64,000 nt of DNA from the NCBI GenBank assembly GCA_002213445.1, contig NJIE01000008.1:124001-188000 (forward strand), read 5' to 3'. The stretch is from Xenophilus sp. AP218F. Lineage in GTDB: Bacteria > Pseudomonadota > Gammaproteobacteria > Burkholderiales > Chromobacteriaceae. The first letter of the stretch is position 1. The number at the start of each line of letters is the position of its first letter. Position numbers and translations under genes: made by a program. This document shows, piece after piece, positions 43,842 to 63,116 of this stretch. The notes below the pieces were generated by a model, which saw only the letters and a program-made list of their open reading frames with translations, was not told the DNA's origin and did not search any database.

Positions 43842-43885
43842 ATCCCCCCCTTATCCCGCGCCAGGCCATGCCGTTTAATGGCAGC
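43842..43885 (+). promoter_or_regulatory. phage bipartite C-tract element, copy A
   Basis: ATCCCCCCCTTATCCC (43842-43857) followed after 19 bases by AATGGCAGC; TTTAAT (43874-43879) would be the -10 box. It shares its C-tract, TTATCCC and spacing with copies at 50130, 63073 and, more weakly, 58485. It lies right before the packaging genes. Confidence 0.5.
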
Positions 43886-44848
43886 ATGGCCACAAAGCGC
43901 GACCTCTCCAAACCCCTGGAAACTGTATCCTTCCGTTGCCCCCATTGCCGGCATACCTTTGATGTCGAGCCGGCGCGAGTAGAGGAGGCGGCCGACCAGG
44001 AGCACCACCCCTTCGCCTATTTCTCAGCTTGCCCGCTGTGCGGCGAGGAGGTCGCACAAGCGCCGTTTCACAAAGCGCTGGTGAAGGCCTGGGCCAATGC
44101 CACCGGTCCGCGCACACCGGCCGGCAAGGCAGCCAGCGCCAAGAATCTGGAAGGCCACCCCACGGCTGAAGAGGCGCTGCGAACTCGGTTCAACGCCATG
44201 AAGCACGGGATGACGGCGGAGACGGCGCAGTATTTCCCGGCGCGGCCCGGCAAGTATCCCGCTTGCAGCAGCTGCGACGTGGATCACGGCTACTGCGCGT
44301 CGCAGCCTGCCTGCATCAAGCAGACCCAGCTCTTCATGGTGCACCACGCCGCGTTCGAGCAGCGCAATCCCAAGCACCTGACGCCCATTTATTCCTCGAT
44401 TCAGGCCAGCATCACCGCGATCATCCAGCAGATCCTGCAGACCATCATCGCGGACGGCGTGAAACTGGAAGCACCGGCCTGGGCGGTGACGCGCGAAGGC
44501 GAGATCGTGATCGGCGAGTACCAGGATTTGGAGACAGGGCAGACGCGTCGGATTATGGAGGTGAAAGCTCACCCGCTGCTCAAACCGCTGCAGGAATTCC
44601 TGTCCCGCAATAACCTGGCGCTCTCGGACATGGGCATGACGCCGAAAGCCATCGAGCAGGAAGAACAACAGATGGGCCGCCTGGCGCCGGCCGGCGACGT
44701 CCCGCGCACGCTGTCCCTGGAGGACTACGCAGCCAAGCAGGCCGAGTCCATGGCCGCCCTCAAAATCTTGGCAGATCGCGCCAACGCCCGGAAACAGCGC
44801 GATCCGGTGCTGATCGAATACCAGCAGCAAAACGGGGGCGAGCCGTGA
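43886..44848 (+). CDS. cysteine-rich phage protein, possible small terminase subunit
   Basis: A 320-residue protein starting MATKRDLSK (an ATG at 43868 is an alternative). It has CPHCRHTF and CPLCGEE near the N-terminus, a probable zinc ribbon, then CSSCDVDHGYC and QPACIK, a second Cys cluster, and an all-helical C-terminal half. The segment HGMTAETAQYFPARPGKYPA occurs in phage proteins located just upstream of a large terminase, so a DNA-recognition (small terminase) role is likely by position; I cannot name the family. The end overlaps the terminase gene. Confidence 0.6.
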   Translation: MATKRDLSKPLETVSFRCPHCRHTFDVEPARVEEAADQEHHPFAYFSACPLCGEEVAQAPFHKALVKAWANATGPRTPAGKAASAKNLEGHPTAEEALRTRFNAMKHGMTAETAQYFPARPGKYPACSSCDVDHGYCASQPACIKQTQLFMVHHAAFEQRNPKHLTPIYSSIQASITAIIQQILQTIIADGVKLEAPAWAVTREGEIVIGEYQDLETGQTRRIMEVKAHPLLKPLQEFLSRNNLALSDMGMTPKAIEQEEQQMGRLAPAGDVPRTLSLEDYAAKQAESMAALKILADRANARKQRDPVLIEYQQQNGGEP

Positions 44849-46503
44849 GCGGAGAGCGCACCAGCGCCGCCCAGCGCATCAAGGTGCAGCACCGTGCCGA
44901 GGCCGAGGTGATGCGCTATGCCCGGCCGGACCCGGCCACCGGCATCAAGCCGCATGCGCTATGGGCCAAACACGTGCACAACGTGGACCTGGACCCGATG
45001 CAGGTGCTCAAGATGCTGGAGATGGACGCCAACCCCAACACTGTAGATTTCAGCTGCCGGCGGACGGGCAAGACCGCCGTCAAGGAAATGTACGCGCTGG
45101 AGTTCCTGGCCACGACGCCATTTCAGGAGGAAGGCATCGTGGCCCCGCGGCTGCAGCAAAGCCAGACCAACATCACCTATCACCTGGACGCCATCCGGCG
45201 CAGCGACATCCTCACCGGTTGGATAGCCTACAAGAGCGGGCGTCCGCAGCTGGCGGACCTGAAATACCAGTTCGCCAACGGCAGCAAGGCCAGCTGCTAC
45301 GGCATCATGTCCCAGATCGACGGCGACGGCATCAGCTTCGCCAGCCTGGAGGAGACCGACGACATGCCGGCTGACCGGCTGTTTTCCCGCTTCCTGCCCA
45401 TGCTTGGCTCCGCGCGTCGGCTGGGTGTGGACCAGGGCGTCAGCTTCAAGCCGCAGATACGCATCACCGGGGTGCACAAGGGTGCGGACGTGTTGTCCCA
45501 CCTGATCGAGACCGGCGGCTACCACATCCTGCCGCCGGTGGACGTGTACCTGGGCATCGAGCTGGGCATCCTCAACGAGGCCTTTGTGCTGGAGATGCAG
45601 TCCCAGCTGCCGGAGGCGGAATACATCCGCCAGTTCCTCTGCATAAACGCCGCCGCGCAAAACTGGATCTGGGAGAAATACATCCGCCGCGCCATGGCGG
45701 TGGGCTTGCAAGCCGGGCTGAACCCGGCCGGGCCACTGCCGGGCCAGCGTTACCGCAAGCGCGGGCTGCTGTCCTTCGGCTATGACCACAGCGGCCACGG
45801 CGAGAGCGCCCACGCCTCTTGTTCCGCGCTGGCGGTATGCGAGCAGGTGGGCAACTTCATTACCTTCCCCTATGTGAAAACCTGGCCGGCCGGTACCGAC
45901 GACGCTGTGGTGGAGCGCGATCTGCTGGGCTTGTGGGAGTACTTCCGCCCTGACTACGCCATGGGCGACGCTTACGGCCTGGGCATGCTCACCAGCCTGA
46001 ATGACCGGCTATTTGCCCAGGGCCTGACCGAGGTGGATCGCCGCAGCATAGGCGAGGGCCAGTCCACCGCCAGCACATGGCAGCACTGGCCGTTCGCGCC
46101 GATTCGCTTCGAAGGGATGACCAAGCACAGCATGGCCAGCGCGCTGCGCGCGGCCTTCCACAACGGCCAGGCGGCCATCCCGTATGTGGATGACGGCACC
46201 GATGCCCTCAAGGCCAAGAACCACGCCAACACCCACTGGGGTCCGTCCGCGCTGGACCAGGTGCAGGCCGACGCCAGCGACTGGGGGCGCTTCATCCGCC
46301 AGCTGGGCAATATCAAGTCCAAGCCAGTGCAGGGCGCCAGCTACAACAGCTACAAGATGGCAAACCCGAAGATTGGCGATGACCTTTTCGACGCCGCCAG
46401 CGCCGGCGTGTGGGCGCTGCTTACCCGCGGCGTGGCCAGCTACACCCCAACGGTGATAGCCAGCCGCGCCATGACAACCGAACAACTGCTGGGGATGCGA
46501 TGA
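44845..46503 (+). CDS. phage terminase large subunit
   Basis: A 552-residue protein with the ATPase Walker A variant CRRTGKT near residue 74, a Walker B-like FASLEETDD around residue 170, and a nuclease-like domain with LLSFGYDHSGHGES and YAMGDAYG carrying acidic residues for metal binding. It packages phage DNA into the procapsid by ATP hydrolysis and cuts the concatemer or headful. Length and layout resemble Mu-like/B3-like terminases. It overlaps both neighbours by four bases. Confidence 0.82.
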   Translation: MSGERTSAAQRIKVQHRAEAEVMRYARPDPATGIKPHALWAKHVHNVDLDPMQVLKMLEMDANPNTVDFSCRRTGKTAVKEMYALEFLATTPFQEEGIVAPRLQQSQTNITYHLDAIRRSDILTGWIAYKSGRPQLADLKYQFANGSKASCYGIMSQIDGDGISFASLEETDDMPADRLFSRFLPMLGSARRLGVDQGVSFKPQIRITGVHKGADVLSHLIETGGYHILPPVDVYLGIELGILNEAFVLEMQSQLPEAEYIRQFLCINAAAQNWIWEKYIRRAMAVGLQAGLNPAGPLPGQRYRKRGLLSFGYDHSGHGESAHASCSALAVCEQVGNFITFPYVKTWPAGTDDAVVERDLLGLWEYFRPDYAMGDAYGLGMLTSLNDRLFAQGLTEVDRRSIGEGQSTASTWQHWPFAPIRFEGMTKHSMASALRAAFHNGQAAIPYVDDGTDALKAKNHANTHWGPSALDQVQADASDWGRFIRQLGNIKSKPVQGASYNSYKMANPKIGDDLFDAASAGVWALLTRGVASYTPTVIASRAMTTEQLLGMR

Positions 46504-46733
46504 GCTACGGCAAATACAAACTGGCCCGGCCGGCCGAACAACCCAAGCGCGCGCCGCCGCCGTTGACGCCGGCCCAGCGCGCCCGCGCGGCGCAAATGCG
46601 CGAGTCCTGGCTGGCGGCGTTTGGCGACGACAGCTTTATCCGGGAGCTGCACGAGGCCGGGCTGATAGACGGCTGGCGCAATGTCCTGTCCGTCACCCCG
46701 ATATCAGAGGAACCCACCCATGGCGATACTTGA
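46500..46733 (+). CDS. small phage protein between terminase and portal
   Basis: A 77-residue protein whose ATG overlaps the terminase stop (ATGA). It is basic and proline-rich at the start (LARPAEQPKRAPPPLTPAQR), then one helix RAAQMRESWLAAFGDDSFIR. Its end overlaps the portal start by 14 bases. No family recognised. The coupled arrangement implies a real gene made with terminase and portal. Confidence 0.55.
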   Translation: MSYGKYKLARPAEQPKRAPPPLTPAQRARAAQMRESWLAAFGDDSFIRELHEAGLIDGWRNVLSVTPISEEPTHGDT

Positions 46734-48102
46734 CTCACTGCTGGCCCGCTTTGGCCGACGGCTGCCGCAGCCCGCGGCTGGCGCCAATGCCGCCGCGGCG
46801 GCGGAAACCACGCTCCCCGATGAACCGCAAGGCCAAACCACTGAGACCGGCCGGCGCTCCACGCCGGAAAACCAGATCCGCTCGATGTACCGGCAGATGG
46901 CGGTGGACTACGACCTGCGCGCTGCCATCATGGACATCCGCCAGATGGACAAGTCGGACGGCCGCGTCAAGCGCATCCACAACCGCGTGGCGCGCGACGT
47001 CACGCGCGGCGGCCTGGTGCTGCTGCAGACCGACCCGGCCAGCCAGATACAGGGCGAATGGACCCGCTTTGTTCAACGCCTGCAGCTGGCCCGGCCGGAA
47101 AAGCTCAAATCGGACGCCCGCGGCCTGCTGATGGAAGGCAACCTGCCCATGCAGTGGGTGCTGGACGTCGCCGGCAACGTGGTGGCGGGCGTGCGCATGC
47201 CCACGGAAACCATGCGGCCCAATGTCGGCATCAATGGCCAGTTTCTCGATCCGCGCGCCGCCTACACCCAGATGGACCTCACCGCCGGCGCGGCGCTGGC
47301 CAGCTTCCCGTTGTGGCAGCTCACCCTGGTGCGGCTGGACCCGGACAACTTCGACGATATGGGCGCGCTGGGGCGGCCGTTCCTGGACGCCAGCCGGGAG
47401 ATCTGGCGCAAGCTGCGCATGACCGACACCGACCTGGTGATCCGCCGCAAGCACCGCGCGCCGCTGCGCCTCTCCCATGTGCTGGAAGGCGCGACGGAAA
47501 GCGAGCTGCAGGCCTACCAGGACCGGGTGGAGGCCAACAAGGAGCTGATCCAGACGGACTTCTACCTCAACAAGAAGGGCGGGGTTACAGCCATGCAGGG
47601 CGACGCCACGCTGGGCGACATCGGCGATGTGTTGTACCTGCTGGATTCCTTCTTTGCCGGCACCCCCTTGCCCAAGGGGCTGATGGGCTACACCGACGGC
47701 ATGGCGCGCGACATCCTGGAAGACCTCAAGCGCGACTATTACGACGAAGTGGACCAACTCCAGGACACGCTGGCGTGGGTGTACGAGTTCGGCTTCCGCC
47801 TTCAGCTGCTGCTCCGGGGGATCAACCCGGACGCCGAAGCCTTCCGCGTGACGTTTGCCGAGCGCCGCACCGAAACCATGACGCAAACCGCCGACCGCGC
47901 ATTGAAGCTCAAGGCGCTGGGCCTGCCGCAGTCCATGGTGTGGGAAGAAATGGGCTACAACGCCGCCGACGTGGAAGCCCGGCGCGAGAGCGACGCCCGA
48001 AACTACGAACCCTACCCGGACGCCGGCGCGACCACGGTGAAGATCACCCCCGGCAACGGCCGCAAGGGGGAGTCGGCAACGGACCTTGGCCATGGCCAGT
48101 AA
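46720..48102 (+). CDS. phage portal protein
   Basis: A 460-residue protein of the gp6/SPP1-like or Mu gp29-like portal group: MYRQMAVDYDLRAAIMDIRQ, FVQRLQLARPEKLKSDARGL, VGINGQFLDPRAAYTQMDL, and the long helix RVEANKELIQTDFYLNKKGG. It forms the dodecameric ring through which DNA enters the head. The ATG at 46720 is chosen over an upstream in-frame start because GAGG stands before it. Confidence 0.78.
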   Translation: MAILDSLLARFGRRLPQPAAGANAAAAAETTLPDEPQGQTTETGRRSTPENQIRSMYRQMAVDYDLRAAIMDIRQMDKSDGRVKRIHNRVARDVTRGGLVLLQTDPASQIQGEWTRFVQRLQLARPEKLKSDARGLLMEGNLPMQWVLDVAGNVVAGVRMPTETMRPNVGINGQFLDPRAAYTQMDLTAGAALASFPLWQLTLVRLDPDNFDDMGALGRPFLDASREIWRKLRMTDTDLVIRRKHRAPLRLSHVLEGATESELQAYQDRVEANKELIQTDFYLNKKGGVTAMQGDATLGDIGDVLYLLDSFFAGTPLPKGLMGYTDGMARDILEDLKRDYYDEVDQLQDTLAWVYEFGFRLQLLLRGINPDAEAFRVTFAERRTETMTQTADRALKLKALGLPQSMVWEEMGYNAADVEARRESDARNYEPYPDAGATTVKITPGNGRKGESATDLGHGQ

Positions 48103-48982
48103 TCTGGAACGCGCCGCCGCCATCCGCGCCGCCACGCTGACGGCGGTGGAGCAGCGCAACCAGCTGGCCGACGATGCGGTGCAGGACCTGATCGAGATCT
48201 ACGACGACGCCGGCGACGCCATTGTGGAGCACATCCAGCGCGCCGCCGACCAGGACGACCGGGTGACGCTGGACAGCCTGCAATCCGTTCTCTCGCACAT
48301 CCGGGAGCAGCTGCAGCGCCTGAACGAGCGGCGCGACGGGCTGCTGTACCGCCGCCTGGACGCCGCGGCGCAGGTGGGGGCGGGCGTGTTTGCCGGCGCC
48401 CTGCCGGATTCCCAGCTGTTTGCCGTCAATCACGCCGCCGTATCGTTTGTGCGCGGCTTTGTCGCCGCCGACGGCCTGCAGCTGTCGGACCGGCTATGGC
48501 GCATCAACCGCCAGGCGGCGCAAACGCTGGCCGACCATATCCAGTTTGCCGTGATAAATGGAGAAAGCGCGCACCAGGCCATGCTGCGCAGCATGGGACG
48601 CGGCGAGGGCGTGCCGGACGACATCGCCCACGCCTACAACGGGGCCAAAGCCGGTCAGCTGGGTCGGCGCGTGCGCAGCCTGATGACCGGCGAGGCGGAC
48701 CCGGTGAACGGCAAAGGGGTGGTGTACCAGGCGGAGCGGGTATTCCGCACCGAGATCAACCGCGCCCACGGCGAGGCCTACATGGGCGCCGCCTTCCAGA
48801 CCGATGGGGTGGCGGGGGTGCGCTTCATGTTGTCGCCCAACCACCGGGTCCGCGACGTGTGCGACCTGCACGCCACCGCCGACAAATACGGGCTGGGGCC
48901 GGGCGTCTACCCCGACCGCGCCAGTTGCCCGTGGCCGGCGCATCCGAATACGCTTAGTTATGTCGAAGGCGTATTTGCCTAA
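48092..48982 (+). CDS. MuF-type phage head morphogenesis protein
   Basis: A 296-residue protein. The first half is helical; the C-terminal half has the MuF fold: VFRTEINRAHGEAYMGAAFQ, then RFMLSPNHRVRDVCDLHATA, and YPDRASCPWPAHPNTLSYVE with conserved Cys/His that may bind metal. MuF proteins (Mu gp30, SPP1 gp7) associate with the portal and enter the capsid. The next gene is AT-rich cargo, a position where phages often carry effector genes with MuF. Confidence 0.8.
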   Translation: MASNLERAAAIRAATLTAVEQRNQLADDAVQDLIEIYDDAGDAIVEHIQRAADQDDRVTLDSLQSVLSHIREQLQRLNERRDGLLYRRLDAAAQVGAGVFAGALPDSQLFAVNHAAVSFVRGFVAADGLQLSDRLWRINRQAAQTLADHIQFAVINGESAHQAMLRSMGRGEGVPDDIAHAYNGAKAGQLGRRVRSLMTGEADPVNGKGVVYQAERVFRTEINRAHGEAYMGAAFQTDGVAGVRFMLSPNHRVRDVCDLHATADKYGLGPGVYPDRASCPWPAHPNTLSYVEGVFA

Positions 48983-49036
48983 GGCCGCTGCTGGGCCGGT
49001 AGGCGTGCTTCCTTCATCTGAGTTCGTTTTTCTTGT

Positions 49037-50119
49037 ATGATAAATGATTCAAGCGTAACGGTTGATGCTGCCATGGACATTAAGTGCGAAAGTAAAACTC
49101 AAGAAGATTTTGTAAGAGTGATTGATATTGACAAGCTTGAGGTGGGAGACATCATTCTTACTACTTCCGAGGAGAGTATAAGTACGTTGATTAAAACGGT
49201 AACGGATAGTGATATTTCACATGCTATGGTTTATTTGGGTGGCGGATCGGTTGTCGATTCTACTGGCGATGGTGTTCATGCACGAAATTTACAGAAAATG
49301 CCATATCCAGAGTCTTGCGCAATCTATGTTTTAAGAATGAATGAAGCTTTGACAGAGAAGCAGTTTGAGAAAATTGAGATTTATGCAAGATCGAATATCG
49401 GAACTGGCTATTCGATGGGGGAGGCAGGGTTATCAATTTTTGATGTTGAGAGCGGAGGATCAAGAAAGCAGTTCTGTTCAAGACTGGTTGCGCGAGCCTT
49501 TGAGGAGGCCGGCATTCGGCTGGTTAAAAACCCCAATTATTGCACGCCAGATGACTTGAAACAATCTTCTCTTTTGAGTTTTGTTGATGGAGTAATTCAA
49601 TCTATTTCGATGGCTGATTTCAGATCTCGTGGCAAAGACAGCGTTCAGGAAATGCGAGATGTAACTAAGGCGCTTTTGAGCGAGATAAGAAAAATCGCTC
49701 CTAACGTTGAAAGCATCAATGATATTAATGATTTTCTAATTGGTAACTCGAAAATGGATGGGGAGATTGCGCAGATTTTTGTTAAATCTGGCTATCTTGA
49801 TCTTTGGAGGAATGATGAGGCTTTGTATCCCTGGCGTTACGACCTTTTAAAGATTGTGGATTTTTATGAGTCTGGCAACAAAAGGCTGGAGCTGATTAAG
49901 TATGCGCGTGAAAGTGTGGCACATATAGAAGAAGGTGGTTTCGATCATTGGATAGTGTGTGCTCGAGGTTATTTTTATGCGTACAAATATTATGGTTTTG
50001 AAACTTTTAAATTATTGGCGGAATTGTATAGCAATCTTGAGAGCCAGCTTAATCGGCGACTTCTTTGTGCAAAGTATGTTGTGGAACAAGCGAAAAAGGA
50101 TGTGAGTGCTAGTATGTAA
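49037..50119 (+). CDS. AT-rich cargo gene: YiiX/NlpC-P60-like protein inserted in the head block
   Basis: A 360-residue protein with base composition and codon use very unlike its neighbours, marking recent insertion. Residues about 28-180 match the permuted NlpC/P60-type (YiiX/YebB-like, DUF830) fold: KLEVGDIILTTSEESISTLI, DSDISHAMVYLGGGSVVDST (His), and GGSRKQFCSRLVARAFEEAG (Cys). These permuted papain-like proteins are predicted amidases, proteases or acyltransferases. The C-terminal 180 residues are a helical domain I do not recognise. No signal peptide. It could be delivered with the particle beside MuF, or act on host lipids or wall; both are inference. The start is uncertain: ATG 49037 or 49072. 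Confidence 0.65.
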   Translation: MINDSSVTVDAAMDIKCESKTQEDFVRVIDIDKLEVGDIILTTSEESISTLIKTVTDSDISHAMVYLGGGSVVDSTGDGVHARNLQKMPYPESCAIYVLRMNEALTEKQFEKIEIYARSNIGTGYSMGEAGLSIFDVESGGSRKQFCSRLVARAFEEAGIRLVKNPNYCTPDDLKQSSLLSFVDGVIQSISMADFRSRGKDSVQEMRDVTKALLSEIRKIAPNVESINDINDFLIGNSKMDGEIAQIFVKSGYLDLWRNDEALYPWRYDLLKIVDFYESGNKRLELIKYARESVAHIEEGGFDHWIVCARGYFYAYKYYGFETFKLLAELYSNLESQLNRRLLCAKYVVEQAKKDVSASM

Positions 50120-50129
50120 TTGAGGTGTA

Positions 50130-50173
50130 ATCCCCCCCTTATCCCACCATCCCCCCTTGCTTACCCTGCTAGA
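50130..50173 (+). promoter_or_regulatory. phage bipartite C-tract element, copy B
   Basis: ATCCCCCCCTTATCCC (50130-50145), 19 bases, then CCTGCTAGA; TACCCT at 50162-50167 takes the -10 position. It follows the AT-rich cargo gene and precedes the protease/capsid gene by 35 bases, the place of the I-gene late promoter in Mu. Confidence 0.5.
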
Positions 50174-50207
50174 AACCGCGCATCCGCGCGACTCTGGTAG
50201 GTAGGCG

Positions 50208-52772: not shown

Positions 52773-52808
52773 CCCAGCCGGCCCGCCGCCGGCGGGCCGC
52801 ATCACCGG

Positions 52809-54429: not shown

Positions 54430-54430
54430 A

Positions 54431-55597: not shown

Positions 55598-55877
55598 AAC
55601 CGCGCGCGCGCCCAGCTGGCACTTTGAAAAGCGCATCAACTTGGGCGACGTGCTGACTACTCTGGCGCTGGTGGGCACGCTGCTGGGGTTCATGCTGACG
55701 CTGGACCGCCGCCTGACCGTGGTGGAAGAGAAGCAGGCCCAACAGGCGGTGATTGACCGGCAGCAGGACGAACGCCAGCGCGAGCAGAGCAACGAGGTGA
55801 AGGCGGAGCTGAAGGATATTGGGGCCAAGCTGGACAAGCTGGTCGAGCGCCAATTCGACATGAAGGGCCGCCCATGA
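55587..55877 (+). CDS. small membrane protein with coiled coil in the lysis region
   Basis: A 96-residue protein: hydrophobic helix VLTTLALVGTLLGFMLTL near residue 22, then a charged coiled coil (VVEEKQAQQAVIDRQQDERQ onward). It might be a second holin/antiholin or a tail-assembly membrane protein; its place just after the spanins favours a lysis role. GGAGAG stands before the ATG. It overlaps the next gene by four bases. Confidence 0.6.
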   Translation: MSNETARAPSWHFEKRINLGDVLTTLALVGTLLGFMLTLDRRLTVVEEKQAQQAVIDRQQDERQREQSNEVKAELKDIGAKLDKLVERQFDMKGRP

Positions 55878-56476: not shown

Positions 56477-56633
56477 CGGCCTGCTGGTGCGGCTGGAGGA
56501 TGGCAGCGGCTATCTGCCGGCCGAAGGCCAGCCGGTGCCGCTGACCACCTACTACCGCCGCCGGATGGCCGATGGCGACGCCGTGGAAGTTATCGATGAA
56601 CCGCCGGCCAAGCCGGCAAAGAAGGAGGCATAA
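56445..56633 (+). CDS. Mu gp38-like small protein (DUF2635)
   Basis: A 62-residue protein: LIKLKPAADGLLVRLEDGSG, YLPAEGQPVPLTTYYRRRMADG, minus the last two letters, and a Lys/Pro/Ala tail. This is the short beta protein always found before the sheath gene in Mu-like phages; function unknown. It overlaps the gp37-like gene by 32 bases and ends three bases before the sheath gene. Confidence 0.8.
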   Translation: MQLIKLKPAADGLLVRLEDGSGYLPAEGQPVPLTTYYRRRMADGDAVEVIDEPPAKPAKKEA

Positions 56634-56636
56634 CCC

Positions 56637-58118
56637 ATGCCCGACAACATCACTTTCATGTCCATCCCGGTGGGCATCCGCACCGGCGGCGTGTATGTGG
56701 AAATCGACCACACCAAGGCGCTGCGCGGCCTGCCGCAGATGGAGCGCAAGCTGCTGGTGCTGGGCCAGCGTCTTGCCGTCGGCAAAACTCCGGCGCTGAC
56801 GCCCTCCCGCATCCTCAACGCCGAAGATGCCGCGGGGCAGTTTGGCCGCGGCTCCATGCTGCATGTGATGGCCCGCGCACTAGATGCGGTGAAACAGCGC
56901 TACGGCCTGATCGACGTGTACGCCGTGGCGCTGGACGATCTGCCGGCCGGCGTGGCCGCCACCGGCAGCATCACCCTTACCGGCACGGTAACCAAGCCCG
57001 GCACGCTGGCCGCCTGGGTTGGCGGCGAGCGCGTGCGCGTGGGCGCCAGCATCGGCGACACCAACACCGTGCTGGCCACCAAGCTGGCGGCGGCTATCAC
57101 CGCCGACCCGGACCTGCCTGTCAGCGCCGCGGCCGCGGCCGGCAAGGTAACCATCACCGCCTACCACAAAGGGGAGGCCAGCAACGACATGGAAGTGTCG
57201 GTGGCCTATTACGACGAAGACGCGCTGCCGGAGGGCATCACCGCCGCCTGCGTCAACCTGGCCGGCGGCAGCGGCAACCCGGACGTGGGCGCGGCGCTGG
57301 CGACGATTGCCGAGGACTGGTACTACAGCATCGCTTGCGCCTACACCGACAGCGCCAACCTGGCCGCCATCGAGGCGGACATGGACGGCCGCTGGGGCGG
57401 CATGAACATGCGCACCGGCCACGCCTTCACCGCCCGCGTGGGCACCCATGCCGCGCTCACCACCTGGGGCGCGGCGCGCAACAGCCCGCACGTCACCACC
57501 TGGGGCCTGAAGGGCTGCCCCACCTGGGCGCCGGCCATGGCCGCCGCCTTTGCCGGCGTGTGCGAATTCCATGGCGCGATCGACCCGGCGCTGCCGCTGC
57601 GCAGCGTGGAAGTGCCGGGCGTGCTGGCCCCGCGGCTGCGCGACCGCTTCAACCGCAATGAACGCGAACTGCTGCTGCGCGACGGCATCAGCTCCACTAC
57701 CGTGGACAGCGGCGGCAAAGTGTACCTGGAGCGGGTGATCACCAATTACCAGAAGTCGCCGTTCGGCATCGACGACGAAAGCCTGCTGCGCCTGGAAACC
57801 AAGTGGACTGCGGACTACTACCGCTACGCCGTGCGCTCCCGCATCGCGCTGCGCTTCCCGCGCCACAAGCTGGCGGACGACGGCATCAACATTGCGCCGG
57901 GCCAGAACCTGGTGACGCCATCCATCATCCGCGCCGAGCTGATAGCCCTGCACCGCGAGCTGGAGCAGGCCGGCATTGTGGAAGACACCGACCAGTTCAA
58001 GCGAGACTTGATCGTGTCGCGCAGCGCCGCCGACGTGGACCGCGTCAACGCTGTGCTGCCGCCCAACCTGGTCAACCAGTTCGTGACCTTCGCTGCCGCC
58101 GTGCAGTACCGACTGTAA
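56637..58118 (+). CDS. contractile tail sheath protein
   Basis: A 493-residue protein of the Mu L type: starts ITFMSIPVGIRTGGVYVEID, has a variable protease-resistant domain in the middle, RTGHAFTARVGTHAALTTWG and SPHVTTWGLKGCPTWAPAMA, and a C-terminal sheath domain with LVTPSIIRAELIALHRELEQ. It forms the contractile outer tube, so this phage is a myovirus. It is followed by the tube gene. Confidence 0.88.
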   Translation: MPDNITFMSIPVGIRTGGVYVEIDHTKALRGLPQMERKLLVLGQRLAVGKTPALTPSRILNAEDAAGQFGRGSMLHVMARALDAVKQRYGLIDVYAVALDDLPAGVAATGSITLTGTVTKPGTLAAWVGGERVRVGASIGDTNTVLATKLAAAITADPDLPVSAAAAAGKVTITAYHKGEASNDMEVSVAYYDEDALPEGITAACVNLAGGSGNPDVGAALATIAEDWYYSIACAYTDSANLAAIEADMDGRWGGMNMRTGHAFTARVGTHAALTTWGAARNSPHVTTWGLKGCPTWAPAMAAAFAGVCEFHGAIDPALPLRSVEVPGVLAPRLRDRFNRNERELLLRDGISSTTVDSGGKVYLERVITNYQKSPFGIDDESLLRLETKWTADYYRYAVRSRIALRFPRHKLADDGINIAPGQNLVTPSIIRAELIALHRELEQAGIVEDTDQFKRDLIVSRSAADVDRVNAVLPPNLVNQFVTFAAAVQYRL

Positions 58119-58130
58119 GGAACCCCCACC

Positions 58131-58484
58131 ATGGCACAAATGACCGGAATGGTTTACGTCACCCTCAACGGGCAGCGCAAACGCTCCAAGCCCGGCGCAA
58201 GCCTCAAGCCGGGCGGCAAGATCAAGGAAGCGGTAAACGACGTGCACGGCTACTGCGGCACGGCGGTGAAGGAGATCAAGGGCGCTGAAATCAAATTCAC
58301 CATCCCGCACGCCTCCGACGAAGATGTGGTGGCGCTGCAGAATCTGGCAGATGTGACGGTGCTGTTTGAAACCGACAGCGGCCAGCGTTACCTGGCGCGC
58401 GGCGCAGACACGGTGGGGGAGGTGGAGCTGAAGGGCAACGAAGTGGAGGTGACGCTATCCGGCCAGCCGGCCGAGCTGGTCTGA
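58131..58484 (+). CDS. tail tube protein
   Basis: A 117-residue protein of the Mu M type: MTGMVYVTLNGQRKRSKPGA, then VKEIKGAEIKFTIPHASDED and LADVTVLFETDSGQRYLARG, all beta-rich, ending with EVTLSGQPAELV. It polymerises as the inner tail tube. Order sheath-tube is the standard one. The C-tract element copy D begins one base after its stop. Confidence 0.87.
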   Translation: MAQMTGMVYVTLNGQRKRSKPGASLKPGGKIKEAVNDVHGYCGTAVKEIKGAEIKFTIPHASDEDVVALQNLADVTVLFETDSGQRYLARGADTVGEVELKGNEVEVTLSGQPAELV

Positions 58485-58528
58485 ATCCCCCCGGTAACGC
58501 ACCAGGCGAAGTGCGGCATACTGGCTGT
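58485..58528 (+). promoter_or_regulatory. phage bipartite C-tract element, copy D (weak)
   Basis: AATCCCCCC (58484-58492) with GGTAACG instead of TTATCCC, then at the same distance CATACT (58517-58522) as the -10 box and TGGCTGT. It lies in the 281-base gap before the first AT-rich cargo gene; that gap also holds a terminator and nothing else I can support. Confidence 0.35.
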
Positions 58529-58586
58529 GTTGCGACAGATAGCTTCCCGGACTTACCTCTCTCACGGCGGTGTGGCGCTGCCTCTG

Positions 58587-58614
58587 AACCCCAGCTTCGG
58601 CTGGGGTTATTTTT
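58587..58614 (+). terminator. intrinsic terminator after the tail tube gene
   Basis: Stem AACCCCAGC / GCTGGGGTT closed by a TTCG tetraloop (58587-58608), followed by ATTTTT. It would end the main tail transcript and also stop much of any transcript from copy D. Confidence 0.85.
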
Positions 58615-58771
58615 ACACCAAAAGTAGCTTATGCATCTGGTGCAAGCTGCTGTTCTGCTTTATTGTTCTTCTGTCTGCACCAGTACTTATGGCGCTGAAC
58701 TTTTTTGTATTGCAGATTATGCATTTTTCGTAGAGAATCCCGCCCCTAGTAGCCTATGCTGAGGGATGAGG

Positions 58772-59176
58772 ATGAGCGAGAAGGTTGAGCTGGCCAAGCT
58801 GAAATTTGAGCATGACAAGTTCCGGCAGTCGATGTCGATCAAGCGCTGGGAAATTGTCGGTACGCTTATCGTTCACGCCATGAAGTCTGGAACGTACCTT
58901 GGTGGAATCTATTTCATTTTCGCTGGGCTGGGGGTGCTGCTCAATGAGCGCTCGCCAGAAGCAATTAAAGCCATTGCTGAGGTTGTGAAGGCTACCGACC
59001 TTGGATCAATACTCGGATATGTGTGGGGTTGCGCAATGACCACCATGTACCAATTTGAACGGCGCGGCAAAAAGCGCGCTATCCAGGAAAAGAGTAAGTA
59101 TCAAAAGGAAGTGGAGGCTGGCGAACCTAACCGCACCTCTTCCGGTCTAACCCCTACGGGGGAAACACCAAGTTAG
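58772..59176 (+). CDS. small membrane protein of the AT-rich cargo cluster
   Basis: A 134-residue protein: charged N-terminus (KVELAKLKFEHDKFRQSMSI), one clear hydrophobic helix GGIYFIFAGLGVLL and a second weaker segment GYVWGCAMTTMY, then a basic tail. GAGGG precedes ATG 58772 (58766 is an alternative). No family recognised. It resembles small inner membrane cargo proteins that prophages use in exclusion, but this is only by context. Confidence 0.55.
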   Translation: MSEKVELAKLKFEHDKFRQSMSIKRWEIVGTLIVHAMKSGTYLGGIYFIFAGLGVLLNERSPEAIKAIAEVVKATDLGSILGYVWGCAMTTMYQFERRGKKRAIQEKSKYQKEVEAGEPNRTSSGLTPTGETPS

Positions 59177-59187
59177 GAGATAATATA

Positions 59188-59784
59188 ATGCAACTATTTT
59201 TATTCGGACTTGGTTTGCTTTTGTTGATGGTGTCTTGGCATTTCATGATTAAGCCAACCTTGCGTGATAGAGCACGCGACAAGTTGTTTGACTTGCGCGA
59301 ATCTGTCCGTCAGTATTTTTTAGATCACCATGACTTGAATCATCATCTGTATAGAGATTTGAGGGGTTTGATTAATAGCTATTTGCGATATACGGAAGAG
59401 ATCACCTTTTTAGGTTTTGTGATGCAGCTTTGCTATTCCGATAAGCATGCTAAGCAATCTCGCAGTATTAAATATGCTGGGCTAGATAAGGGGTTAGTAA
59501 ATTTTGCTAACTCAGTGAGAGCTGATGCCAGTGGAATTGTAATTTGGTATGTGATCCAAACCTCTCTGCTTGGCTGGTTTTCTGTCGTTATTGGCTCTTT
59601 TTTATTTGCAATCGAACATGCTCGCGGGGCGCTAAAATCTCTTCGTGAGGATTATAAAGAGATATGCAAGATGCCCATTGCCAGATACGCAGTGATTGTT
59701 TTTATGACTCTTACTGCTACCTTTGGGTTGGGAACGGCGACAACGGCCAGAACCACGCTGGAACGCTGCGCTACAGACGCTTAA
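59188..59784 (+). CDS. membrane protein of the AT-rich cargo cluster
   Basis: A 198-residue protein with hydrophobic helices at residues 2-20 (LFLFGLGLLLLMVSWHFM), about 125-150 (IQTSLLGWFSVVIGSFLFAI) and 170-190 (YAVIVFMTLTATFGLGTA), and a charged loop between them that faces the cytoplasm (RDKLFDLRESVRQYFLDHHD). TAGGAG is well placed before the ATG. It is 11 bases after the previous gene, so the two may form a pair. No family recognised. Confidence 0.6.
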   Translation: MQLFLFGLGLLLLMVSWHFMIKPTLRDRARDKLFDLRESVRQYFLDHHDLNHHLYRDLRGLINSYLRYTEEITFLGFVMQLCYSDKHAKQSRSIKYAGLDKGLVNFANSVRADASGIVIWYVIQTSLLGWFSVVIGSFLFAIEHARGALKSLREDYKEICKMPIARYAVIVFMTLTATFGLGTATTARTTLERCATDA

Positions 59785-59803
59785 GAGTGGTCGTGGATAT
59801 AAT

Positions 59804-59833
59804 AAGCCCTGTCCAATCGGACAGGGCTTTTTC
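59804..59833 (+). terminator. intrinsic terminator after the second cargo membrane gene
   Basis: Stem AGCCCTGTCC / GGACAGGGCT with loop AATC, followed by TTTTCTTT; 20 bases after the stop at 59784. Confidence 0.88.
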
Positions 59834-59843
59834 TTTGCGGTCC

Positions 59844-59857
59844 ACTTCGCTTTTCTG
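59844..59857. repeat. phage 14-base repeat, left flank of the SAP-gene cassette
   Basis: ACTTCGCTTTTCTG, identical to copies at 41577-41590 and 61252-61265. Together with the copy at 61252 it brackets a segment of 1.4 kb with two AT-rich genes. Confidence 0.55.
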
Positions 59858-59937
59858 GACAATAGCATGTCGGTTTTTGCGATCTCGCACATGAAATGTG
59901 CGGGCATATGTGTGAAGTATTTAGAGGAGAATGTGAA

Positions 59938-60888
59938 GTGGCGCGTAAATTATCTACGGGAAATGGCTGGATAATTATTCTGGCGCTGATAGTTTTTGCA
60001 GTGGCTTCTTTGTTCAGCTGGATTGGGTCTGTGTGGTTTTCGGTTGTTTTGTTTGGTATTTCAGCCTTTTCGTTTATGCTGATTCGCTACAAAAATAAAG
60101 TGGCTGCAAATTGTTTTCCAAGGAAAACAGTATCTTTTAAGCCTGCTTCGGTCTCGCGTCATGCTGATGAAGGTGGTAGCTCTGATCTAATTGAAGTGGT
60201 GCGTAGAAAAATAAGCGTAGGTGACTGGAATGCGGCGAGACAGGTCTTGCGGTCAATTGCATGGGAAACCCATCGCACATCCACCCCGGAATTAAAGGCT
60301 CAGTTCAAATTGGCGATGTGCCAATTTGCAGCTAGCGATCCGCTGTATAAATTAATATTGCCGGCATTGCTAAGTCAGATAAAACTAACGCCTGGTTGCA
60401 TTCAGGCAAAAATATATGGAAGTGTGCCCGCATTTGGCGTGGAAGACCAGCGTTACGTTCTTTATTATGCGGAGGCGATTGGGGAGGTTGTTAGGATTAA
60501 AAAAGGAAACAGTTATGCACTCTTTCTCCCTGGTGATGCGCCATCTGAAATGGTTAGCGAGGATTTTTCTGAGTTGGAGAGAGAATTTTTGCATGAAATG
60601 CGGTTGAAGAAAAAGGTATCTCTCCCGTGCAATTCCTATTGGGAGCAGAAAATTCAAGGCTGCGCATTGGTAATGCGGAAATTTCAAAAGGCTGGATTAT
60701 TCAGAAAGGCTACGTTGCAAGAGTGTGTTGATCATGCGCTTGACAAATCGAGACTGGTTGAGGAGTTGAGGCTTTTGGGTTTGCCGGTTAGTGGGAATAA
60801 GTCAGTTTTGATTGAGCGCTTGTGTGAGTGCAGTCCGGAGCATGCTGAGATGCTGGTTAGTCAGATTGAGCTGTATATTCCAGTTTGA
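59938..60888 (+). CDS. membrane-anchored protein with C-terminal SAP domain
   Basis: A 316-residue protein from GTG 59938 (GAGGA nine bases upstream); a longer ATG frame from 59896 is possible. Two adjacent hydrophobic helices at the N-terminus (IILALIVFAVASLFSWIGSV and VVLFGISAFSFMLI) anchor it. The C-terminal 40 residues, KSRLVEELRLLGLPVSGNKS then VLIERLCE, form a SAP-type DNA-binding helix-extension-helix. The middle is a soluble domain with several cysteines and no motif I recognise. A membrane-tethered DNA-binding protein in a prophage cargo cluster is a candidate for blocking DNA entry of other phages. The base composition differs from the structural genes. Confidence 0.6.
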   Translation: MARKLSTGNGWIIILALIVFAVASLFSWIGSVWFSVVLFGISAFSFMLIRYKNKVAANCFPRKTVSFKPASVSRHADEGGSSDLIEVVRRKISVGDWNAARQVLRSIAWETHRTSTPELKAQFKLAMCQFAASDPLYKLILPALLSQIKLTPGCIQAKIYGSVPAFGVEDQRYVLYYAEAIGEVVRIKKGNSYALFLPGDAPSEMVSEDFSELEREFLHEMRLKKKVSLPCNSYWEQKIQGCALVMRKFQKAGLFRKATLQECVDHALDKSRLVEELRLLGLPVSGNKSVLIERLCECSPEHAEMLVSQIELYIPV

Positions 60889-60938
60889 TTGAAGTGTGCG
60901 GCGATTAAAAATTTACCATAATGCAAGTGAGAGGGCCT

Positions 60939-61232
60939 ATGTACTTGGCTTTTAATCTGATTGTGATTGCTTTTTCTCTTTGGGTTTTTAATGATGCCGT
61001 GAAGAATAAAATCGGGTATGGTGGTGGCGTCTTTAATTTGAGTGCTTTTGGATGGGCTATTTTTGTGATGTTTTTATTTTGGATTGGGCTTCCGGTATAT
61101 TTGATTTTACGGAAATCGCTAATTTCAAAAGCTAAGGCCTATCCAGTAATTACTGATGATGCGGAGGGGAAAATGCATGGTTTGATAACGCTTGGAGGGG
61201 CTGTGTTAATAGTGGCCCAGATACGTTACTGA
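60939..61232 (+). CDS. small membrane protein of the cargo cassette
   Basis: A 97-residue protein with three hydrophobic segments (YLAFNLIVIAFSLWVF, FGWAIFVMFLFWIGLPVYLI and LITLGGAVLIVAQI). GAGAGGG lies just before the ATG at 60939; an ATG at 60921 is an in-frame alternative. AT-rich like the gene before it. It might partner the SAP-domain protein. No family recognised. Confidence 0.55.
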   Translation: MYLAFNLIVIAFSLWVFNDAVKNKIGYGGGVFNLSAFGWAIFVMFLFWIGLPVYLILRKSLISKAKAYPVITDDAEGKMHGLITLGGAVLIVAQIRY

Positions 61233-61251
61233 TTAAACCTCATGCCTGCCA

Positions 61252-61265
61252 ACTTCGCTTTTCTG
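61252..61265. repeat. phage 14-base repeat, right flank of the SAP-gene cassette
   Basis: ACTTCGCTTTTCTG, in the same orientation as the copies at 59844 and 41577. It marks the change from AT-rich cargo to the C4 RNA/antirepressor block. Confidence 0.55.
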
Positions 61266-61337
61266 CTTGACACAGCTCGCTCCGGCGGGCTATCGTCATA
61301 TCCGGTGCTCAAAACACCTCAAAATCATACAGCGGAT

Positions 61338-61366
61338 ACCGCACCCGTCAGCCCTGCGGTTTTTTT
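61338..61366 (+). terminator. probable terminator upstream of the C4 RNA
   Basis: Short stem ACCGCA / TGCGGT with an 11-base loop, followed by seven T. Upstream of it, CTCAAAATCATACAG (61318-61332) resembles the C4 target and may be an older copy or an attenuator. Confidence 0.55.
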
Positions 61367-61400
61367 GCGTCCATAGTTTTTGCCTTGGCCCATTTTGTGG

Positions 61401-61500
61401 GACAATGCGCGTCCTATGGCCGGGTGTGCGGCTAATACAATACCCGTAAGGGGAATACGCCCGCCGTCTGTATGCGGTTTTGAGCACCCGGCCGCCCTCT
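61401..61500 (+). ncRNA. C4-type antisense RNA
   Basis: The region has the layout of the phage P1/P7 C4 antisense RNA: a closing stem GGCCGGGTG (61418-61426) / CACCCGGCC (61485-61493), an inner part with AATACCCGTAAGGGG, and the antisense segment CTGTATGCGGTTTTGAG (61468-61484). That segment is complementary, allowing a short internal gap, to CTCAAAATGACATACAG at 61515-61531, which reaches the ribosome binding site of the next gene. In P1 the C4 RNA, made from the same promoter, blocks translation of icd and hence of the antirepressor. A promoter of type TTGCCT/GACAAT just upstream is possible but poorly spaced. Confidence 0.8.
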
Positions 61501-61514
61501 CAAAAGGGGCAGAA

Positions 61515-61535
61515 CTCAAAATGACATACAGGAGG
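61515..61535 (+). promoter_or_regulatory. C4 RNA target over a ribosome binding site
   Basis: CTCAAAATGACATACAGGAGG: the first 17 bases can pair with the C4 antisense segment, and the CAGGAGG part is the ribosome binding site for the ATG at 61541. Pairing would hide it and stop translation. Confidence 0.7.
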
Positions 61536-61540
61536 CCATT

Positions 61541-61837
61541 ATGGCCAGCATCGACCCCATCCGTGAGGCGCGTCGCGCCTACAAGCGCGCGGACAGTGCC
61601 AAGTTCTACCTGAACCAACTCCCCGACGACTTCCGCGCCGCCATCTTCAATAACGGCATGCCGCATTGCCACGCCGTTACCCTTCAGCTTTCCCCGCAAA
61701 CCCTGCGCGCCATGCTGGAAGCCATCATAGCGGTGGAGTTGACCCGCGACCGGCTCACCTTCCTGCTGGACAATTGCCAGGCGCAGCCGGCAGCGCGCAG
61801 CGTGAAAGCGAGGAGGGTCGCGCCATGCAACAGCTGA
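61541..61837 (+). CDS. small protein in the icd position upstream of the antirepressor
   Basis: A 98-residue protein (DPIREARRAYKRADSAKFYL, AVTLQLSPQTLRAMLEAIIA) with a strong CAGGAGG site that is the predicted C4 target. It overlaps the antirepressor gene by 13 bases, so its translation probably opens the antirepressor start, as icd does for ant in P1. The protein itself shows a basic, helical sequence with no recognised motif; whether it inhibits host cell division like Icd is unknown. Confidence 0.65.
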   Translation: MASIDPIREARRAYKRADSAKFYLNQLPDDFRAAIFNNGMPHCHAVTLQLSPQTLRAMLEAIIAVELTRDRLTFLLDNCQAQPAARSVKARRVAPCNS

Positions 61838-62457
61838 ACTTTGCCCCGGTGCCGTTCCGCGGCGCCACGCTCTACCTGGTGGAGCGCAATAACGAGCCGT
61901 ACACGCCGATGAAACCAATCGTAGATGGCATGGGGTTGGATTGGAAAAGCCAGCATACGAAGGTTTCAGCCAATCCTGGCCGCTGGGGTATGGTGATAAT
62001 CACCATACCTTCCCAGGGAGGAGAGCAAGACATGCTGTGCATGCCGCTGCGCAAGCTGGCCGGCTGGCTGATGACCATCCACCCCAACAAGGTGAAACCC
62101 GAAATCCGCGACCGCATCGTGGCGTACCAGAACGAATGCGACGAGGCGCTGTGGCAGTACTGGACCACCGGCATGGCCATCAAGCCGGGCGTAAGCCCGC
62201 CGCCCCCGGCCCGTGATCCGTTTCTGGAAATGCTGGTGAAGGAGTTCGGCAAAGGCAACCTGGCCGCCGCCGAGCTGCTAAAAAGCCGCTACGGCCTCAC
62301 CCTTGACCTCGCCGCCCAGCGCAAGAAGAACGAGAGGCTCAGAAGCAACAGGGGCTATCCGCCGGTGACGGAGGTGGAGTGGCACCAGCAGCAGATGGAC
62401 GATTTGGATTCTTATGCCGAGTTCCAGAACCGGAAATTGAAGGAGCAAGGCCGCTGA
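61825..62457 (+). CDS. ant: phage antirepressor with P22_AR_N domain
   Basis: A 210-residue protein. Residues about 1-115 match the P22_AR_N domain (LNFAPVPFRGATLYLVERNN, YTPMKPIVDGMGLDWKSQHT and PLRKLAGWLMTIHPNKVKPE), which binds and inactivates a phage repressor, or, in related proteins, binds DNA. The C-terminal half is helical and specific to this phage. It would trigger prophage induction when made; C4 RNA keeps it silent. GAGG precedes the ATG. No repressor gene lies in the window. Confidence 0.85.
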   Translation: MQQLNFAPVPFRGATLYLVERNNEPYTPMKPIVDGMGLDWKSQHTKVSANPGRWGMVIITIPSQGGEQDMLCMPLRKLAGWLMTIHPNKVKPEIRDRIVAYQNECDEALWQYWTTGMAIKPGVSPPPPARDPFLEMLVKEFGKGNLAAAELLKSRYGLTLDLAAQRKKNERLRSNRGYPPVTEVEWHQQQMDDLDSYAEFQNRKLKEQGR

Positions 62458-62488
62458 TCCGCCGAGCTAGCGCGCCAGCTGGAAAGCA

Positions 62489-62514
62489 AAAGCCCCGCAT
62501 CTGCGGGGCTTTTC
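62489..62514. terminator. bidirectional intrinsic terminator
   Basis: AAAAGCCCCGCA / TGCGGGGCTTTT: a symmetrical stem with A- and T-runs on both sides, between the antirepressor and the convergent membrane protein gene. Confidence 0.88.
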
Positions 62515-62519
62515 TGCGT

Positions 62520-63032
62520 TTAGCCGTGTCTGCCTTTGCTCTGCTGGGGCTTGCCGCCGGCTTTCGCCTTTGTTGTAGCCGGTTTAGCTTGAGCAGGCTT
62601 GACGGGAGGTAGCGAGTTATCCTCGGGCGCAAAGACAGCAGCGCCGGCAATGCCGCCGCCAATCGCCGCTGACACGTACAAGTAGATGTTTTGCAGCAGG
62701 TTTCCAAATGCGGCCAAGTGGTCGTGGTTACCGGCGATAAGTCCTTGCAGACTTAGGATGGTGGTGGCGCTGAACCCCGCAGCGAACACGCCCAGCAAGA
62801 TCAAGCCAATGCCCCCAAACAGGAGATTGCCCTTGGTTTTTTCCTGGCGGGACACAAAATGAATCGCGGCGAAGCAGGTGAGCAGGTAAACCGTGACATT
62901 CAGAAGCATGATTGGCAATGCAAGCTCCTCGCTCAAGAATGGCATGGTGATGAAGTGCACCAATATTGCGAGAGAGGTAGGCCCAACAGCTATGGCCGAT
63001 CTATAGAATGTTCCCCGTCCAACCAATCGCAT
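62520..63032 (-). CDS. prophage membrane protein, transcribed against the structural genes
   Basis: A 170-residue protein with four hydrophobic helices (AIAVGPTSLAILVHFITM, MLLNVTVYLLTCFAAIHF, LFGGIGLILLGVFAAGF and NIYLYVSAAIGGGIAGAAVF) and a Lys/Ala/Pro-rich cytoplasmic tail. It is the only minus-strand gene in the prophage part seen here, with its own terminator, so it is likely expressed in the lysogen. This suggests superinfection exclusion or a host-altering function; no family is recognised. Confidence 0.6.
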   Translation of the reverse strand: MRLVGRGTFYRSAIAVGPTSLAILVHFITMPFLSEELALPIMLLNVTVYLLTCFAAIHFVSRQEKTKGNLLFGGIGLILLGVFAAGFSATTILSLQGLIAGNHDHLAAFGNLLQNIYLYVSAAIGGGIAGAAVFAPEDNSLPPVKPAQAKPATTKAKAGGKPQQSKGRHG

Positions 63033-63072
63033 ATTTTGCTCCGTGATTTATGAAGCGAGCATTGTGCGCTAA

Positions 63073-63116
63073 ATCCCCCCCTTATCCCATCTCTCAAGCC
63101 CTCCCACAATGCCAGC
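63073..63116 (+). promoter_or_regulatory. phage bipartite C-tract element, copy C
   Basis: ATCCCCCCCTTATCCC (63073-63088), 19 bases, AATGCCAGC; CACAAT at 63105-63110 takes the -10 position. The last part is nearly the same as in copy A (AATGGCAGCATGG against AATGCCAGCATGG). It precedes the tail chaperone gene by 40 bases. Confidence 0.5.

Follow-up and report, generated by a model that had tools for sequence, protein, structure and literature searches.

What function do the C-rich elements have that recur between the gene groups of a prophage in Xenophilus sp. AP218F? In the 64,000-nucleotide stretch of contig NJIE01000008.1 that we analysed (hereafter the window), the phage that carries these elements appears to be temperate; its head and tail genes are Mu-like, and it has integrases of its own: an integrase-like gene at 42030-43139 matches Pfam Phage_integrase with 84.1 bits, and the integrase-like L037:570-1634, which adjoins a tRNA-Ser, scores 26.2 bits, just below the 27.1 cut-off. 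We consider it likely that the elements are late promoters of this Mu-like temperate phage, switched on through their C-tract by a Mor/C-type activator encoded at 43333-43839.

The sequence ATCCCCCCCTTATCCC occurs without mismatch, each time on the + strand, at 43842 (copy A, 43842-43857), 50130 (copy B, 50130-50145) and 63073 (copy C, 63073-63088), and comprises the C-tract together with TTATCC, which occupies the -35 position. A search of the window that permitted up to three mismatches returned three matches, all of them exact, while 100 shuffles searched with the same three mismatches gave a mean of 0.40 and reached at least three in 2 of 100 cases. In the 3.98-Mb genome, ATCCCCCCNTTATCCC with up to two mismatches adds just two sites to A, B and C, both with two mismatches and on other contigs; the three copies are the sole sites within one mismatch. 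The exact triple described in the initial annotation is thereby confirmed, the motif is not common elsewhere in the host chromosome, and the shuffle and genome searches reject chance repeats as the origin of the elements. As also noted there, a second block lies 19 bases past the 16-mer in A, B and C (AATGGCAGC at 43877, CCTGCTAGA at 50165 and AATGCCAGC at 63108), and in all four copies, including the weaker copy D (58485-58500, + strand, with a diverged C-tract), a -10-like hexamer ends 37 bases after the first A: TTTAAT (43874-43879), TACCCT (50162-50167), CACAAT (63105-63110) and CATACT (58517-58522).

A weight matrix built from 17 elements, the window's three included, scored A at 44.7, B at 46.9 and C at 51.9 bits (39.9, 43.3 and 49.5 when held out); 6 of 23 candidate elements had been left out of it, namely the chance hits L024, L025, L026 and L030, as well as L106 and one L008 near-duplicate. 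Copy D scores 4.6 bits, rank 4 on both strands of the 64 kb, a low value that had suggested a decayed copy. This idea was rejected once we found that five related prophages have a counterpart 3' of the stop codon of their tail-tube gene, and it is because of this conservation, rather than its score, that we accept copy D as real.

The elements had been taken for a family private to this phage; we found the same class in prophages of beta- and gammaproteobacteria, with a spelling that differs from phage to phage. Aligned on the start codon of the gene that follows copy A, with the A of ATG as +1, 75 non-redundant upstream regions show C at -41 to -36, T at -35 to -30 and an AT-rich stretch at -12 to -8, where the TTTAAT of copy A lies (upstreams more than 80% identical, loci whose upstream stretch was shorter than 60 bases and GTG starts were dropped). 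The same geometry recurs in 40 further sites that have no ATG anchor, made non-redundant at the same 80%; 29 of these 40 have A or G as their predicted +1. Searching 82 loci (window included, exact duplicates removed only) for each phage's own spelling elsewhere yielded 44 sites on the late strand versus 2 on the opposite strand, and a reversed-box control gave 5 sites on both strands together; at least one extra site is present in 35 of the 82 loci, and the other 47 have none at 17/22 or better. In some loci, such as L023, L185, L120 and L123, a clear C-tract is missing upstream of the small-terminase-like gene.

The spelling is also shared within a phage. Across 55 phages, again filtered at 80% identity, the box of the packaging gene matches the protease-gene region of the same phage at a mean of 15.2/22 positions and that of other phages at 11.7/22, a result that none of 10,000 permutations equalled. 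The own protease region was the best or tied partner in 26/55 phages and strictly the best in 19/55, counts that are held down by our limiting the B region to 130 bases before the gene and by the A box being out of register in GTG-start relatives (e.g. L106, L160, L204), both of which work against the matching.

These features point to promoters that depend on an activator. TTATCC matches TTGACA at 3/6 positions, the -35 is degenerate and T-rich across relatives, and a sigma-70 consensus scan of 58300-63200 gave no match at C or D. Several same-strand copies stand before late functional blocks, as in Mu-type promoters, and may be co-regulated; the initial assignment of each copy to such a block holds for A (packaging), B (protease and capsid) and C (tail chaperone and tape measure), and fits D poorly, which had been placed before cargo. 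In the mechanism that we propose, a Mor/C-superfamily activator of the phage, encoded directly before copy A, would most likely bind the C-tract (roughly -42 to -36), adjoining the weak -35, and host sigma-70 RNA polymerase would be recruited to the -10 at normal spacing. The geometry, the strand bias and the A/B matching lend good comparative support to the original idea that these are late promoters on whose C-tract an activator acts; its private family, its activator to the right and its cargo promoter were not borne out.

Phage Mu offers the closest comparison: its late regulation (Pm, Plys, PI, PP and Pmom; Mor and C) likewise uses several promoters with non-consensus -35 regions, each before a functional block, and a small phage activator protein whose gene precedes the first late unit, a role for which we have a candidate here. 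PMC4287176 describes Pm as having a -10, lacking a -35 and requiring Mor. One late promoter of Mu is annotated before the protease gene I, the position that copy B has here. The sites differ, however: Mu's is a dyad centred at -43.5, whereas the C-tract next to the -35 is not palindromic, with no centre of at least five pairs in the 16-mer matching over one third and a best value of 5/8 in a 29-base stretch. Transposable Mu-like phages are characterised by a DDE transposase rather than an integrase. Unlike Mu, moreover, the phage carries integrase-like recombinases and a candidate activator that is only remotely related to Mor/C, its first late gene is predicted to be leaderless, and one of its elements would make a short RNA.

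The candidate activator gene (43333-43839, + strand; 168 amino acids if ATG 43333 is the start) ends two bases before copy A, that is, to its left. An activator had been expected to the right of the window, where the genes seen are CI/Cro-like repressors, a LuxR-type gene and apparent early genes. Homologues are present in 5/5 element-bearing genomes, and two G-rich DNA blocks in the 5' coding part are strongly conserved. Profile-profile comparison links the candidate to Mor/C with probabilities of 74.5% and 89.5%, which 0/300 shuffles equalled, and 8/27 homologues of the candidate match phrog_836 'late transcriptional activator' (best E 1e-4). The similarity is remote: 0/27 family members match Pfam Mor (PF08765), the window's protein matches neither phrog_532 nor phrog_836, single-sequence Pfam and NCBIfam scans gave no lead, and a PDB profile search found nothing better than E 0.5. 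The sole PF08765 match in the whole genome at E up to 0.001 lies on another contig.

Close relatives with almost the same elements nevertheless differ in the DNA-binding end of the candidate. Alignment A3 excluded L066, whose frame is broken. Partial Mantel tests over 36 rows (one prophage, G019 = L091, counted twice; L076 and L133 dropped for want of a large terminase) gave r 0.107 (p 0.036) for the HTH part, r 0.082 (p 0.09) for the whole domain and r 0.035 (p 0.26) for the domain without the HTH, and the large terminase is a better predictor of the box (partial r 0.35-0.44). Such a test hardly singles out the candidate as the partner of the box. The gene is nevertheless the likely activator and would act through the C-tract.

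Copy A would drive the packaging unit, whose first gene is the small-terminase-like one (43886-44848, + strand); the predicted +1 coincides with its start codon, ATG 43886. The label refers to a 320-aa protein encoded before the large terminase, whose best PHROG terminase-small match is weak (E 0.049). A Shine-Dalgarno-like 4-mer precedes this gene in only 1/88 relatives, compared with 29/101 for the large terminase, 21/64 for the protease, 13/16 for the sheath and 8/10 for the chaperone (upstream regions more than 80% identical removed). From this geometry and scarcity, the late mRNA of the gene should be leaderless across the family, which extends what had been raised as a mere caution into a family-wide prediction. 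Leaderlessness alone would not be new, since phage transcripts are called 'often leaderless' in a passing statement of a transcriptome paper (PMC5312081); what is predicted here concerns one late packaging gene throughout a phage family, behind an activator-dependent promoter.

An imperfect inverted repeat (43864-43891, + strand) surrounds the -10 and the start codon. It falls outside the class with at least six perfect pairs, which accounts for 20/78 relatives against 5.0 expected (upstreams more than 75% identical removed). In some relatives such a repeat could hide the start within readthrough RNA, and the repeat may also block its translation here. This resembles T4 e, soc, 49 and I-TevI, where, according to PMC3014915, early readthrough RNA folds over the start and the late promoter lies within the fold, so that the late transcript has no 5' arm. 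The T4 messages keep a ribosome-binding site, whereas the late message here would begin at its AUG, and the promoter types differ.

Copy B (predicted +1 about 50174), which comes after a low-GC cargo gene in the window, would serve protease and capsid through a structured leader (50174-50207, + strand) with a predicted GC hairpin. Copy C (predicted +1 about 63117) would serve the tail chaperone and tape-measure unit with a leader of about 40 nt ahead of the chaperone at 63157. Terminator-like hairpins lie directly 5' of C in L038, L043 and L052 and directly 5' of B in L084, L089 and, with a weaker box, L010; transcription would therefore have to restart at these points. L082, L085, L087, L088 and L120 have such a hairpin downstream of B and ahead of the protease gene, an arrangement for which a plain promoter does not account. 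Leader terminators in L103 and L157 were dropped, as their predicted hairpins have no T-run behind the stem.

Copy D is poorly described as standing before cargo, since a terminator-like hairpin (58587-58608) with a T-run follows about 60 nt past its predicted start. Its transcript is more likely to be a short terminated RNA than a cargo mRNA: the predicted product of about 86 nt (58529-58614, + strand) would stop where the preceding unit has its terminator (hairpin and T-run, 58587-58614). Terminator-like matches in 58300-63200 are no more frequent than in shuffles (5 versus 6.8), and the terminator rests for this reason on conservation. GGTGTGGC is invariant in 6/6 D regions, the stem that the window could form being a different one, and Rfam gave no match to the D RNA region at gathering score. 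In the window, D precedes the cargo genes and C follows them.

In phage lambda, the late promoter PR', which is regulated by Q, gives rise to a short terminated 6S RNA. The predicted D RNA and the leader terminators of some relatives are reminiscent of this arrangement. Another phage factor could read the elements, for example an unrecognised sigma-like protein or a Q-kind antiterminator that acts at the promoter and would afterwards read through the leader terminators. The weak co-variation of candidate and box would agree with such a factor, as would the hairpins after D and in the five B leaders. We nevertheless regard it as rather unlikely, given that the remote Mor/C relative accompanies the elements in 5/5 element-bearing genomes and that no terminator is seen in the window between A or C and the following gene; unlike lambda, each phage has several promoters, and the candidate factor is Mor/C-like.

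Conserved, phage-specific elements ahead of functional blocks, with dyad symmetry over the -10 in the A block of some relatives, might also be expected of operators at which a repressor keeps the late genes silent in the prophage. The fixed distance to a canonically spaced -10, the poor -35, the 44-to-2 strand bias and the non-palindromic C-tract make this very improbable. Even less credible are recombination sites bounding cargo insertions, or a DNA site for packaging, as the positions of B, C and D around cargo in the window might suggest: the elements lie on one strand only with fixed promoter geometry, and the Paludibacterium locus L052, where 131 bp without any cargo gene separate D from C, largely refutes insertion boundaries.

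Late promoters under a Mor/C-type activator are thus the reading that we favour. Our literature search found little on the late regulation of Mu-like temperate phages beyond Mu, and among the matches listed for open-access PMC articles none dealt with the promoters described here or with late packaging transcripts that are leaderless. The elements could, as a tentative proposal, belong to a widespread, undescribed late system, in which a diverged Mor/C activator co-evolves with phage-private C-tract promoters, the first promoter lies in a hairpin so that a packaging protein is made only from leaderless late RNA, and the last one produces a conserved late RNA of about 70-86 nt whose CU-rich stretch could base-pair with Shine-Dalgarno sites. 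In dozens of phages of beta- and gammaproteobacteria these promoters can be read straight from the sequence, a candidate activator gene can now be named, and the individual promoter spelling of each phage makes them a natural resource for studying how activators recognise their sites. If packaging genes throughout the family do start leaderless, in some phages with a start-hiding repeat, this would be a simple means of restricting packaging to the late phase.

The coordinates, spacings and hexamers that the initial annotation had given for the elements all proved right on re-checking the sequence, and the motif is rare elsewhere in the host chromosome: the strong copies A (43842), B (50130) and C (63073) are the sole matches at up to one mismatch in the 3.98-Mb host genome, in which the window lies within contig C20. 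A weight matrix from 17 elements, including these three, scored them at 44.7-51.9 bits and ranked copy D (58485) as the next best site on both strands of the 64 kb, at 4.6 bits. Across genomes of the same bacterial family, the element pattern at one mismatch was matched in 8 of 61, own genome included. Besides the own genome, related prophages with the element are present in G019, G021, G044 and G045; G004, G011 and G058 hold a single pattern match each without the second block, as does a second place in G019. We also took relatives of the large terminase from 17 viral loci, 47 named genome loci and the 80 best-ranking of 183 viral loci (the 80 overlap the 17). Of 206 sources, 147 contained the N-terminal portion of the small-terminase-like gene (43886-44848 in the window, behind copy A), near-duplicates counted. 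In most of these the gene is preceded, at a fixed distance from its ATG, by a tract rich in C or pyrimidines, then a T-tract and then an AT-rich block; some of the 147 do not have this layout. The elements are widespread, so that their earlier description as a 'private' family is not borne out.

When the A of the ATG is counted as +1, 75 non-redundant ATG-start regions show a C peak at -41 to -36, a T peak at -35 to -30 and an A/T peak at -12 to -8. The distance between C-tract and -10 block is likewise constant within a base in a GTG-start subgroup (L106, L159-L161) whose gene begins about 25 bases past the predicted +1, which makes the spacing a property of the promoter and not of the start codon. 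Judged by these positions, the layout is of the sigma-70 type with a poor -35, and the C-tract is placed where an activator beside the -35 would bind.

The spelling of the elements is phage-specific. In 55 phages, retained from 79 after removal of near-duplicates, the 22-base box upstream of the small-terminase-like gene matched the region upstream of the same phage's protease gene at a mean of 15.2 of 22 positions versus 11.7 for other phages' regions. None of 10,000 random pairings came this high, and for a control box next to it the two means were 11.2 and 11.1. The own protease region was best or tied in 26 of the 55 phages; in 19 it was the sole best match. Such joint change of two separate places within one phage would be the pattern expected from a phage-encoded binding protein. 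A search of 82 loci (1.47 Mb, window included) for extra box sites yielded 44 in late-strand orientation, 2 in the opposite one and 5 for the reversed box over both strands, with no extra same-strand site in 47 loci at the threshold used. Forty non-redundant extra sites, picked out solely for their likeness to the box of the phage in question, share the promoter layout described above, and their predicted +1 is A or G in 29.

Predicted folds place terminator-like hairpins directly 5' of copy C in L038, L043 and L052, and directly 5' of copy B in L084, L089 and, with a weaker box, L010, so that transcription would need to restart there, in line with promoters rather than another type of site. 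In Mu, gene I, the counterpart of the protease gene behind copy B, has its own late promoter and a predicted terminator before it. Downstream of element B, ahead of the protease gene, L082, L085, L087, L088 and L120 also have terminator-like hairpins with T-runs, and the B leaders of other relatives contain stretches with UCCUCC or GCTCGCTCGC, by eye partly inside hairpins.

Copy D, initially taken to serve the cargo genes, is probably not a dedicated cargo promoter, since the starts of D and C are 131 bp from each other in L052, whereas 4,588 bp and the cargo genes separate them in the window. Five related prophages carry D past the tail-tube stop (L043, L038, L239, L240, which equals L052, and L241, which equals L040), with the motif NTCC[AC]CCCCTGTTT accompanied by a -10-like block, rich in A and T, that reads CATACT in the first three and is less clear in L240 and L241; in all five a CU-rich stretch comes next, then GGTGTGGC and then a terminator-like hairpin with a T-run. 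In the set of 12 loci surveyed for D, in which L237 is the window's phage and L239-L241 have the element, L242-L244 show a C-rich tract and hairpin without a clear match, L245-L246 the terminator-like hairpin alone, and L247-L248 neither element nor hairpin at this place; the sequence of L238 ends there. The RNA predicted in the window spans 58529-58614 (+ strand), with its hairpin at 58587-58608. Terminator-like matches in this region show no excess (5 versus 6.8 in shuffles), and the case for the terminator therefore rests on conservation: GGTGTGGC is invariant in six of six phages, and the stem CGGT...ACCG, found in five, is replaced in the window by different letters that, read by eye, can still pair.

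The gene at 43333-43839, which ends two bases 5' of copy A, is a rather likely candidate for the late activator acting on these elements. Homologues were found in all five element-bearing genomes searched; that of G021 carries one internal TAG, and G044 has an additional weak match. In G044 and G045 the homologue lies about 40 kb from copy A, which it would adjoin only after circularisation. A profile search found a homologue in Microcystis phage vB_MaeS-yong1 that is annotated as 'middle operon regulator', and profile-profile comparison of 27 homologues with 27 Mor/C proteins gave a probability of 74.5%, or 89.5% over 82 columns with sparse columns omitted. The latter match scores 37.5; the best among 300 column shuffles reached 23.7 and the reversed profile 10.1. 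Eight of the 27 homologues, the window's protein not among them, match phrog_836 'late transcriptional activator' (best E 1e-4), as do Mu Mor and Mu C; none of the 27 matches Pfam Mor. Against an activator role counts that the DNA-binding end of the protein varies among close relatives with near-equal elements, and its co-variation with the box beyond phylogeny is weak (r 0.107, p 0.036 for the helix-turn-helix part; r 0.082, p 0.09 for the whole domain). Two G-rich DNA blocks, GGGTGGGGGGTCGGCA and GGGGGGAGGGTACC (43412-43467), also lie within the gene's 5' part. Block one occurs with at most two mismatches in 34 of 38 sources, some of them from one phage, and 29 of these 34, vB_MaeS-yong1 included, also have block two; the blocks may be a site for packaging (cos/pac) or some other kind of DNA site.

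An SD-like 4-mer precedes the small-terminase-like gene in just 1 of 88 relatives. The corresponding counts are 29/101 for the large terminase, 13/16 for the sheath, 8/10 for the chaperone and, in another four late genes, 14/75, 21/64, 8/46 and 16/30, with none for portal and tape measure among just 4 and 2 usable starts. Together with the promoter geometry, this near-absence predicts a leaderless late packaging message, beginning at the AUG or within 1-2 bases of it. Leaderless phage transcripts as such are already known; one published account calls phage transcripts 'often leaderless' (PMC5312081). Perfect inverted repeats of at least 6 bp between -34 and +4 of this start occur in 20 of 78 relatives versus 5.0 expected (no more than 10 in any of 40 shuffled sets). 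Sixteen of these 20 have a 3' arm that ends inside the ATG or within three bases of it. In L175 (11-bp arms) and L105 (10-bp arms) the ATG is itself part of the arms, with the AT-rich -10 block in the loop. A readthrough RNA from upstream would hide the start codon, and an RNA begun at the promoter could not. Start-hiding is the least general step, because the window has only an imperfect repeat and a perfect one of this length is missing from 58 of the 78 relatives. T4 gene e uses a similar mechanism but keeps a normal leader (PMC3014915), whereas the late message here is predicted to be leaderless.

The prophage seems to start near 41.4 kb. A 30-base stretch there (41384-41413) shares 83% identity with the end of the tRNA-Ser (L037:1684-1771) that flanks the prophage on the right. 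Its genes include an integrase-like gene (42030-43139), those for packaging and a Mu-like head and tail set, after which come a LuxR-type gene, repressors of CI/Cro type, additional genes and, next to the tRNA-Ser, another integrase-like gene. One prophage holds two integrase-like recombinases (42030-43139 and L037:570-1634); in vB_MaeS-yong1 an annotated XerD-like recombinase likewise adjoins the Mor-like gene. The phage-borne LuxR-type gene, which encodes an autoinducer-binding and a GerE domain, follows the late genes to the right of the window (L006:10205-10942), and a cargo gene with Peptidase_C92 and NlpC/P60 similarity (49037-50119) lies between the head genes and copy B. An sRNA-Xcc1 family RNA (61418-61501, 86.6 bits) stands 5' of a P22_AR_N antirepressor gene (61666-62457), a pair which resembles a C4-type antirepressor control module. 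It is preceded by TTGACA-18-TATCGT (61267-61296), the top sigma-70-type match (10/12) within 58300-63200, where such matches are no commoner than in shuffles.

On sequence grounds, the elements are probably a widespread set of late promoters, a variant of Mu-type activation. To this type of activation they would add a leaderless packaging message, a start-hiding repeat and a late short RNA, all of them predicted.
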